From positions 2,729,389 through 2,793,388 of the forward strand of contig NZ_CP044205.1 of assembly GCF_009498235.1 (NCBI RefSeq): a stretch of DNA of 64,000 nucleotides, in the 5' to 3' direction. The notes under the pieces are model-generated. The model saw only the letters and a list, made by a program, of their open reading frames with translations. It did no database searches and was not told the DNA's origin. The position numbers and the translations under genes were made by a program. This document shows, piece after piece, positions 1 through 53,581 of this stretch. This stretch comes from Candidatus Methylospira mobilis (GTDB lineage: Bacteria > Pseudomonadota > Gammaproteobacteria > Methylococcales > Methylococcaceae). Position 1 is the stretch's first letter, and the number at the start of each line of letters is the position of its first letter.

Positions 1-193
1 ACTTTTGACCGGTGCCGTTAAGTTAAGTCGTTCGTGGGCGTAGCGCCGCGAATGCGGCTGGAGAGCCTGTCGAACCATGAACGAATTAACTATCAAGACC
101 GCAGGATTTCGAAGGATTTTCCATTCATCCTTCGACAAGCTCAGGACGAACGGAAAATCGGATACTGAATAGTTACCAATCATCTAGAGGTCA
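1..193. repeat. Intergenic region with dispersed repeat sequence
   Basis: No gene is visible here. Positions 122-153 hold the motif CCTTCGACAAGCTCAGGACG, and a near-identical stretch recurs at about 39090-39118. The phrase around GTCGAACCATGA (about 69-80) also has a relative at 39078-39089. Positions 165-176 read CTGAATAGTTAC, matching 12 of the 13 bases at the right end of the inverted-repeat element at 39186-39482. The stretch may therefore be the right-hand remnant of a third copy, but its left part is unclear. Confidence 0.5.
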
Positions 194-4146: not shown

Positions 4147-4352
4147 GTAATTATTCAGCGTACCTGCTGGAGAGAAAGCGAGGTGAGTCAAGCGAGACCT
4201 TCTGCGCCCATGGACGGGCGCAGAGAGCTTCCATAATGAACGGACTTGCGGCGTGGTTAATATTATACCGACGCGCTTCCGCTTTTCTCGACTGGCTAGC
4301 CTCTCTTCCGACTGCTTCGGTCATGACTCAAAATCACTCACTGAATATTCAC
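4147..4352. mobile_element. MITE-like palindromic element, copy 1 (short)
   Basis: About 206 bases between tusB and dsrC/tusE that align with 39186-39482. The ends are GTAATTATTCAGC and ACTGAATATTCAC, degenerate versions of the 13-bp terminal inverted repeats of the second copy. Shared interior blocks include GTGAGTCAAGCGAGAC, TCTGCGCCCATGGACGGGCG, GCGGCGTGGTTAA and CTCTCTTCCGACTGCTTCGG. No reading frame of note is present. It interrupts an otherwise tight gene cluster. Confidence 0.7.
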
Positions 4353-38077: not shown

Positions 38078-38331
38078 TGGCGTAGACTTGCCGCAACCGG
38101 AAACATCGAAGCAACCCGGCTTTTTTGTGATGCGTCCAAACATCGGATAGCATTATTACCCCTCCATATGTGCTGCTTACTCAATAGCTCATGGCCACAT
38201 GACCATAACTGCTTTTATAAGAAGCCGCTCGACGGCCCAATGCGATAAAATTGCATGGAGACGGCGGCAGATCAAATCGCGCCGCATCGGGAAACATTTC
38301 GCCCACTACACAAGACGATCTTAATATAGCG

Positions 38332-39009
38332 ATGAAATATAAAGGGATAATATTCGATTTTAACGGTGTTTTACTTTGGGACGCGGACTTCCATTTTCAG
38401 GCATGGCAAGCGACCGCACTTCGGCTCAGAGGCTCGGAAATGAGCGGTGAGGAATTTGCAACCCATGTGCATGGACGCACCAACTCCCATATTTTGCGCT
38501 ATCTGACCGGACGCACGCTGCAAGGCCGCGAGCTCTTCGATCTCGCCCAGATCAAGGAATTAATGTATCAGAACTTGTGCCTGAAAAATCCCGACCGCTT
38601 CGCACTGTCTCCGGGCGCAACCGCGCTGCTCGATTTCGTTGTGGAAAACGGCATACCCAGAACCATTGCCACGGCTTCGGAGAAAAACAATGTCGATTTC
38701 TTCGCACAGCACCTCGATCTGGAAAAGTGGTTCGGTCTGCAGCATATCGTCTACGATGACGGTTTCCTTCCCGGCAAGCCTGCGCCCGACATGTATGCAA
38801 AGGCGGCGGCAAACCTCTACCTGCCGCCGGATGCCTGTATCGTTGTCGAAGATTCGTTTTCCGGTTTCAAGTCCGCGCATGCGGCAGGCATCGGGCATAT
38901 CGTCGGGCTGGGTCCGCGCGAAACGCACGACAAGCTGCTCGCCTGTGAAGGCGTGTCAACCGTGATCGAAAGCTTTGAGGAATTTCCTCGCGAGTTGCTG
39001 GAGGCATAG
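38332..39009 (+). CDS. HAD-superfamily hydrolase, beta-phosphoglucomutase-like, with DxN motif I
   Basis: A 225-residue subfamily IA HAD protein with a helical cap. Motif I is IIFDFNGVLLWD, motif II TIATASEKNN, motif III the Lys in PGKPAPDMY and motif IV IVVEDSFSGFKSA. The second Asp of DxD, the usual general acid/base of phosphatases, is Asn here, a known variant in some HAD groups that may mean altered chemistry. MKYKGIIFDF at 38332 is the natural start. No partner gene indicates the substrate. Confidence 0.85.
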   Translation: MKYKGIIFDFNGVLLWDADFHFQAWQATALRLRGSEMSGEEFATHVHGRTNSHILRYLTGRTLQGRELFDLAQIKELMYQNLCLKNPDRFALSPGATALLDFVVENGIPRTIATASEKNNVDFFAQHLDLEKWFGLQHIVYDDGFLPGKPAPDMYAKAAANLYLPPDACIVVEDSFSGFKSAHAAGIGHIVGLGPRETHDKLLACEGVSTVIESFEEFPRELLEA

Positions 39010-39185
39010 GGTATGGTCGAGAATAACTTCCCCGTTCGTGGTTAGCCCTTCGACTACGCTCGCTCAGCAGAGCCTTTTCGAACCATGAGAACGGCCCTTC
39101 GACAAGCTCAGGGCTAACGGGTATATAGTCACCCGGGAAGTTATTTATCGCCGTATCCTTACCGAATAATTACTTACAACTATTC
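39010..39185. repeat. Intergenic repeats left of the palindromic element
   Basis: No gene. Two inverted or related copies of a CCCTTCGAC...CTCAG motif are present at about 39047-39070 and 39092-39110. The second, CCCTTCGACAAGCTCAGGGC, nearly matches 127-146 in the window. These are members of a widespread short dispersed repeat. Confidence 0.55.
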
Positions 39186-39482
39186 GTAACTATTCAGCCT
39201 ACCCGCAGGAGAAGATGTGAGTGAGTCAGGCGAGACATTCTGCGCCCTTGGATGGGCGCAGGGCGCTGCCCTGAGCGGCAGCCGAAGGACGGGGTTTGCG
39301 GCGTGGTTAACTACCGACACGCTTCCGCCTGGTTAATATCACCGACACGCTTCCGCGTGGTTAATATCACCGACACGCTTCCGCGTGGTTAATATCACCG
39401 ACACGCTTCCGCGTGTCTCGACGGGCCTGCCTCTCTTCCGGCTGCTTTGGTCATGCCCCAAAAGCACTCGCTGAATAGTTAC
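39186..39482. mobile_element. MITE-like palindromic element, copy 2, with internal 28-bp tandem repeats
   Basis: A 297-base non-coding element bounded by perfect 13-bp terminal inverted repeats, GTAACTATTCAGC (39186-39198) and GCTGAATAGTTAC (39470-39482). It matches 4147-4352 over several blocks but is longer because of an insertion near GGGCGCAGGGCG and tandem repeats. The repeats are three full copies and one shortened copy of a 28-bp unit, GGTTAATATCACCGACACGC followed by TTCCGCGT (about 39305-39415). Each unit contains the small palindrome CACGCTTCCGCGTG across its junction. No clear target duplication is seen. No frame encodes a transposase, so movement would depend on one elsewhere. Confidence 0.75.
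39305..39415. repeat. 28-bp tandem repeat array, about four units
   Basis: Units read GGTTAATATCACCGACACGC plus TTCCGCGT. The first is shortened and diverged (AACTACCGACACG). The units are adjacent with no spacers. Copy 1 of the parent element at 4147 has only one unit-like stretch, so repeat number varies between copies. Confidence 0.8.
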
Positions 39483-39532: not shown

Positions 39533-41374
39533 TCACTGCTGATCGTTCTCCGCTTCCGCGATCACCTGCAAAAAGATATCCCCGTACTTCGCCAGTTTGG
39601 CCTGCCCAACGCCATTGAGCAGCCCCATCTCGCTCAGCATTTTCGGCTTGCGGTTGAGAATTTCCAGCAAGGTGCTGTCGTGGAAGATGACATAAGGCGG
39701 TACGCCTTGTTCGCGGGCCAGTTCGAGTCGCTTGGCCTTGAGCGCCGTCCATAACAGATCTTCGCCGGGTCCGACCAAGGCGGTACGCGCTTGCGTGCCG
39801 CGTTCGTCCTTACCGGCTTTAGGTTTGACCGGCGCGGCATCGCGCCGCAGCCGGACAGTCTGTTCGCTTCGTAATACCGGGCGCGCCGCTTCGCTCAGGC
39901 GCAGGCCTCCGTAGCCTTCCATATCCACGTCAAGCAAACCGGCGGCGACGAGCTGGCGGTAGACGCTGCTCCACTGCGGCTGGGTGAGCTGTTTGCCAAT
40001 GCCGTAGGTGCTGAGCTGCCCGTGCCGGAATTGCTCTATTTTCGCCGTTTCCTTGCCGAGCAGCACGTCGATCAAATGGCCGACGCCGAAACGCTGGCCG
40101 GTGCGATAGACGCAGGACAGCGCCATTTGCGCGGCTTGCGTCGCATCCCAGGTATCAACCGGTTCCAGGCAGTTGTCGCACTGACCGCAATCGCCGGGAT
40201 GTTCTTCGCCGAAATAACGCAAAATGGTCTGATGGCGGCAGGCGGTGGACTCGCAGAAGCCAAGCAGCGCATCGAGTTTTTGCATTTCCACGCGCTTGCG
40301 CTCCTCGGGCGCATCGCCGGACAGCAGCATCTGCCGCATCGACACCACGTCGCCCAGACCGTAAGCCATCCAGGCATTGGCGGGCAGGCCGTCGCGCCCG
40401 GCGCGTCCGGTTTCCTGATAATAGCCTTCCATGCTTTTCGGCAGATCGAGATGGGCGACGAAGCGCACGTTGGGCTTGTCGATACCCATGCCGAATGCGA
40501 CCGTGGCGACCATAACGACGCCTTCTTCGCGCAGGAAGCGGCGCTGATTGGCGCTGCGCTCCGTAGCACCAAGCCCGGCGTGATACGGCAGGGCGTCCCT
40601 GCCCTGCCCTTTGAGCCAGAGCGCGGTTTCCTCGACCTTTTTGCGCGACAGACAATATACGATACCGGCGTCGTCAGGATGCTCGCTATCCAGAAAGGAC
40701 AATAGCTGCTGCCGCGCATTGTTCTTCAACGCGACGCGGTAACGAATATTGGGCCGGTCGAAACTGGATACAAATTGTTGCGCCTGCTCCAGCGCCAGCC
40801 GCTCGACGATCTCGCGCCGCGTCGGCGCATCCGCCGTGGCGGTCAACGCGATACGCGGCACGTTGGGAAAGCGCTCGTGCAATATCGTTAACGCCCGGTA
40901 TTCGGGACGGAAATCATGGCCCCACTGCGAGACGCAGTGGGCTTCGTCGATGGCGAACAGCGCGATGCCGCCGTCTTGCTGCAAGCGTTCGAGCAGCCCC
41001 TGAAAACCTTCGGTCATCAAACGTTCCGGCGCGACATACAACAGTTTCAATTCGCCGCGCAACGCTTGTCGCCACACCTCGCGCGCGGCATCGGCCTCCA
41101 GACTGGAATTCAGAAAAGCAGCCTGCACGCCCAGCTGCTTGAGCGCATCCACCTGATCGTGCATCAATGCGATCAACGGCGACACCACGATGCCGACGCC
41201 CGGACGCAGCAGCGCCGGAATCTGATAGCATAGCGACTTGCCGCCGCCGGTCGGCATCAGCACCAGCGCATCGCCGCCGCCGGCCACATGCGCAACGATA
41301 GCCTGCTGCGCGCCGCGGAAGGCGTCATAGCCGAATACGTCGCGGAGGATTTGTTTTGCCTTATCTGAAATCAT
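39533..41374 (-). CDS. recQ: ATP-dependent DNA helicase RecQ
   Basis: A 613-residue 3'-5' helicase of recombination repair. Helicase motifs: [13 protein letters not shown] (Walker A), [18 protein letters not shown] and [12 protein letters not shown]. The RQC zinc site has four Cys in [12 protein letters not shown] and [11 protein letters not shown] winged helix and a C-terminal HRDC domain ([19 protein letters not shown]) are complete. It stands alone at the edge of the accessory island, 274 bases from truA. Confidence 0.97.
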
Positions 41375-53334: not shown

Positions 53335-53581
53335 AAAAATCAATCCGGCACAAGCCTGTTCGAATTAAGCTAATCGGAGTGTGCTGGTTACGCTTAAATA
53401 ATACAGTTTGCGCGGCAACTCCAAAGGGCAACCGGCATGAAGCTTGCTGAATAAGGGAAGAGCTGGGGCTGTTGCCACCGAGGCCTGCCATGAACACCTC
53501 CTTGACAGCTTCAGGGCGGACAGGGCTGGCGGACCGTATCCCGGAGCGAATAGTTACGTTCACTCCCCGAATAAACTCATT
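53335..53581. other. Intergenic region, unclassified
   Basis: About 250 bases between the convergent repeat protein and fdsD. A stretch reading GCGAATAGTTACGTTCAC (53546-53563) shares GAATAGTTAC with the inverted-repeat element ends at 165 and 39473. No hairpin terminator with a T-run is evident. Confidence 0.3.

Follow-up and report, generated by a model that had tools for sequence, protein, structure and literature searches.

The described elements closest to the one studied here are the autonomous insertion sequences of the ISBst12 group, within the IS66 family, and two MITEs of other parentage, MITEPsy1 and MITECca01. Ends which start with GTAA, together with 8-bp target duplications, are a pointer to IS66. 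ISGst1 and ISGka4, both of the ISBst12 group, are approximately 1.6 kb long, contain one DDE transposase and have a 12–13 bp terminus (GTAACTATTCAGC) and an 8-bp target duplication. MITEPsy1 and MITECca01 are short, non-coding and multi-copy, have ends of the parent type and depend on a helper in trans; the parent of MITEPsy1 is ISPsy2/IS5-like and makes a 4-bp duplication (PMC3189936), and that of MITECca01 is IS982, still intact in its host (PMC9769881). The element at positions 39186–39482 of the window (the whole stretch of 64,000 nucleotides of the Candidatus Methylospira mobilis genome that was analysed) has these MITE traits, with a helper that would likewise act in trans, but neither an ISPsy2/IS5-like nor an IS982 parentage; judged by their sequence, its ends are those of the ISBst12 group. 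It shares with this group the terminus and the duplication, whereas it is only 297 bp long and non-coding, and the ends alone are common to both. We consider it very likely that the element is a MITE mobilised in trans by ISBst12-group transposases. It is thus a known kind of element of a known family, and the set appears undescribed in the literature searched (ISfinder and subscription journals lay outside this scope), in which a text search for the 13-bp end gave only unrelated papers, none printing it for a transposon, and no paper joining ISBst12 with a MITE was found. The initial annotation, which knew of no described family with these ends, was mistaken on this point.

The window element is complete, lies on the forward strand and is the longest copy found of its subfamily, here termed A (297 bp, four 28-bp units). 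Its left terminal inverted repeat, GTAACTATTCAGC (39186–39198, forward strand), is identical to the ends of L177, an autonomous IS66/ISBst12-type element; the right one, GCTGAATAGTTAC (39470–39482, reverse strand), is its exact reverse complement, so the 13-bp perfect terminal repeats reported initially are confirmed. The reading frames inspected contain no plausible gene, and because a PF03050 transposase frame is absent from the 297 bp, the element is not itself an IS66 insertion sequence. A degenerate sequence resembling a right end (39161–39173, reverse strand, 3 mismatches) is located 12 bp to the left and is possibly the remnant of a neighbouring element.

Concerning autonomous elements, the same 13-bp ends are found in 56 of 151 genomes and 23 of 44 genera of the host's order, also with 8-bp duplications. 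A PF03050 search of 16 genomes of the order which carry the end gave elements of 1664–1743 bp with nearly the same ends; L175, L176 and L165 are autonomous elements with such near-identical ends. In L165 (genome G044) the transposase frame ends inside the element's own terminal repeat, the stop codon TAG lying within CTGAATAGTTAC. Searching 311 genomes with one protein of these elements led to L177, which is 1739 bp long, has GTAACTATTCAGC exactly at both ends, is flanked by the perfectly duplicated GATTTATA and contains a single intact ORF of 480 amino acids; its genome has five matches of equal score, one of which was inspected. The L177 protein is an IS66 family transposase (NCBIfam NF033517, 6e-86; Pfam PF03050, 7e-45). 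A transposase gene between these 13-bp ends, which the initial annotation proposed to look for, is therefore present in other genomes of the order, but not in the host genome.

Plasmid records extend the comparison: in both ISGst1 (1613 bp, perfect duplication AAAAGAAC) and ISGka4 (1635 bp, perfect duplication AACTCGTC) one end is identical to GTAACTATTCAGC throughout, and the second differs at one of the 12 bases compared. On plasmid pHTA426, the replicon of L323, an ISBst12-group IS66 element has been reported (PMC8024623); we name L323 ISGka4 after its RefSeq record, and the name stands on another row in that paper. The autonomous elements whose ends match the window element are L177, L180, ISGst1 and ISGka4; the window element's end has the GTAA start of the ISBst12-group terminus and agrees at 13 of 13 bases with both ends of L177 and with one end each of ISGst1 and ISGka4. 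From the same 12–13 bp ends and 8-bp duplications in L177, ISGst1 and ISGka4 we infer a MITE of the IS66/ISBst12 type. In the mechanism proposed, an ISBst12-type transposase would recognise GTAACTATTCAGC at both termini and insert the element into AT-rich DNA, with duplication of 8 bp; transposases of this type would have moved the MITEs. Beyond 13–16 bp at the ends, nothing convincing is shared between the interior and the autonomous elements found, so that an origin from one of them through internal deletion would be only a hypothesis, and the actual parent may have been lost or may lie outside the genomes sampled.

The host genome (G000; 4.70 Mb, single contig) contains no evident helper. 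The L177 protein finds nothing there better than E = 0.02, and PF03050 detects five intact classical IS66 copies (at 2665780, 2827375, 3224530, 3506998 and 4138399) and one remnant of the same type. The classical copies resemble the MITE in that their end starts with GTAA, and the PF03050 transposase in the genome is theirs; their end, GTAAGCGCGTAACGCC, however, does not match the MITE end, and they were rejected as probably not the helper. Also rejected was the decayed remnant at 2160422, which is 56–70% identical to the classical host IS66 and does not match ISBst12-type proteins. No transposase was recognised by eye in the ORFs neighbouring unpaired host ends. Pairs of host ends 1.6–2.7 kb apart with 3 mismatches have no duplication and were treated as chance. 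The host genome thus lacks a cognate transposase, and its MITE copies, with their mean pairwise identity of 81%, look stranded; we infer that the helper which dispersed them has since disappeared. In four other genomes (G050, G092, G077 and G132) 21–80 exact end sites are seen, often with only fragments of an IS66-type transposase or none; it is as if the MITEs outlive their helper.

The lack of an ISBst12-type transposase in the host, and MITE interiors unrelated to the autonomous elements, would also fit a transposase of another family which likewise duplicates 8 bp, happens to share the end and moves the element. We regard this as improbable, since all the autonomous elements found with these ends, from the host's order to Geobacillus, carry an IS66-type transposase; the search for them ran through IS66 transposases, other families being covered by inspection by eye of the ORFs beside unpaired ends. 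Mobilisation by ISBst12-group transposases remains the preferred reading, and it assigns an abundant small-repeat class of the methane-oxidising Methylococcales to a known transposase group.

In the host genome BLAST of the element returns 66 pieces, and at least 27 relatives (164–229 bp) were extracted and aligned, with a mean pairwise identity of 81%. With at most 1 mismatch allowed, the 13-bp end occurs 164 times, vs 2 for a reversed-pattern control, in agreement with the initial description of a dispersed, MITE-like element; a single genomic copy or inconsistent ends, named there as grounds against it, are excluded by these counts. Many of the 164 sites are the ends of elements that differ in their interior, and therefore several host subfamilies have one set of ends in common. 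In the window, the end was found 6 times at up to 2 mismatches (0.83 expected). The relative noted earlier at 4147 is real: it is a second subfamily A copy of 206 bp (4147–4352, forward strand) that holds a single 28-bp unit; its two ends have 1 and 3 mismatches, and it shows no clear duplication (5/8). Two further end-like motifs had been listed. The one at 165–176 is the right end of a 197-bp element (genome 2729368–2729564, forward strand) that extends 21 bp beyond the left edge of the window and has its right-hand part at window 1–176; its interior is different, its ends are the same, and its 8-bp duplication, CAATCATC at 177–184, is perfect. The other, GCGAATAGTTAC (53546–53557, reverse strand), is weak: its inner three bases depart from the consensus, a scan of the window allowing 2 mismatches does not pick it up, and inspection by eye revealed no partner.

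For lengths from 3 to 15 bp, the two flanks of 55 paired host elements were checked against each other. Their identity averages 0.725 for 8 bp, where the control gives 0.32, and 0.28–0.38 for all other lengths; the 8-bp flanks are perfect in 13 pairs and match at 7 or more positions in 22, compared with 0.6% of mismatched controls. This peak marks the host family as one spread by transposition with 8-bp duplication. Most relatives have a matching duplication, but the window copy does not: its flanks, AACTATTC and TAAAATAC, match at only 4 of 8 bases, so that a flank has presumably been lost or exchanged. Also, the window element lies between convergent gene ends, of a HAD-type hydrolase (38251–39009) and a recQ-like helicase (39533–41374), both named by eye from translations, and its interior holds palindromic GC-rich stretches. 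Such a setting and interior would suit a repeat kept for a cell function, e.g. transcription termination or RNA structure, with its spread being incidental; however, transposition is recognised by exact ends, by 8-bp duplications and by the same ends enclosing unrelated interiors, and the copies have diverged to 81% mean identity, which makes this explanation even less probable than a transposase of another family.

Five neighbouring pairs of elements in the host genome have outward-facing ends exactly 7 bp apart, a right end being followed by the next left end (1529991/1530011, L059; 1787220/1787240, L066; 1999524/1999544, L070; 2143335/2143355, L074; 2304977/2304997, L078). This spacing suggests that insertion may be favoured directly beside an existing end, the duplication overlapping the terminal base of that end. 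Targeting beside ends has been described in other families, e.g. IS911 and IS30.

The distribution of the ends was also examined in 84,980 species genomes, scanned for two exact ends 130–160 bp apart. At least 118 stretches were found, vs about 0.002 expected by chance for 26 fixed bases (our own estimate). Short elements with both exact ends are hosted by Bacteroidota, Bacillota, Desulfobacterota, Acidobacteriota, KSB1, Mariprofundia, Gammaproteobacteria and Methanosarcinales; among the matches listed are Desulfogranum, Prevotella, Lachnospiraceae, Blautia, Sedimenticola, Mariprofundaceae, KSB1, Acidobacteria and Methanosarcinales, several of these hosts being isolates and many being metagenome bins, which may be assigned to the wrong host. 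Both flanks are available for 116 of the matches listed, and 77 of these have perfect duplications and 92 match at 7 or more of 8 positions (controls 0.4%); the perfect duplications among them are 76% A+T. The interiors of the listed matches and the host elements form 57 clusters and are mostly unrelated, and prevalence is modest, as an end pair of that length is present in 5 of the 398 genomes sampled from the host's phylum, one of the five being the host itself. The 13-bp ends are unexpectedly widely conserved, from Bacteroidota to methanogenic archaea. Chance repeats or an assembly artefact, which have the missing duplication of the window copy and nothing else in their favour, are already refuted by the 164 host sites vs 2 in the control and by a paired pattern of 26 fixed bases in many unrelated genomes, where chance would give practically none, and we give them a negligible probability.

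A further proposal, which we make tentatively and hold to be somewhat doubtful, is that the MITEs of unrelated hosts, archaea included, form one cross-compatible set, such that a helper arriving from one phylum could mobilise the MITEs of another, and that the transposase may in addition favour sites beside existing ends, as in the five 7-bp pairs. If one transposase serves all of them, any ISBst12-type element that arrives would find in these MITEs a set of targets already in place. In one genome of the host's order (G050) the interior of one MITE matches one from a contig named Methylobacter. Five elements from distant hosts (L204, L207, L225, L253 and L275) contain an internal copy of the end, similar to GTAACTGTTCAG, some 30–50 bp inside the terminus.

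The sole tandem array of the window is that of the element itself (39301–39415, forward strand; period 28, 4.2 copies, 94% matches in Tandem Repeats Finder). It consists of about four units of GCGTGGTTAATATCACCGACACGCTTCC, the last three identical, and each unit starts and ends at a GCGTG direct repeat, between which it would grow or shrink by slippage or short-repeat recombination. The aligned host copies have 0, 1, 2 or 4 units, four being found in the window copy only. Copies without a unit are 164–176 bp long, those with one mostly 199–229 bp and those with two 226–228 bp; the unit numbers were read by eye from the alignment, and the length bands overlap due to other indels in some copies. 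Because many copies are without it, the unit is probably not needed for transposition. On the element tree, which is poorly resolved, unit number requires 11 changes vs a shuffled mean of 11.6, and 45% of shuffles are as low. This supports a unit number which does not follow the phylogeny of the elements, and it fits repeated gain and loss by either process. The variation ascribed to slippage after dispersal in the initial annotation is therefore upheld as regards the variable unit number, but the timing may hold only in part: three two-unit copies have a diagnostic 27-bp second unit in common, and for this reason the two-unit form may have been copied as such and in part predate dispersal.

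A second dispersed repeat (39014–39160), unrelated to the MITE, adjoins the window element on its left. Its ends are close to ATAACTTCCC and GGGAAGTTAT; it contains the motif CCTTCGACAAGCTCAGG and is represented by 21 genomic pieces in the host. The element at window positions 1–176 contains the motif CCTTCGACAAGCTCAGGACGAACGG, much of which is also present in this unrelated repeat.
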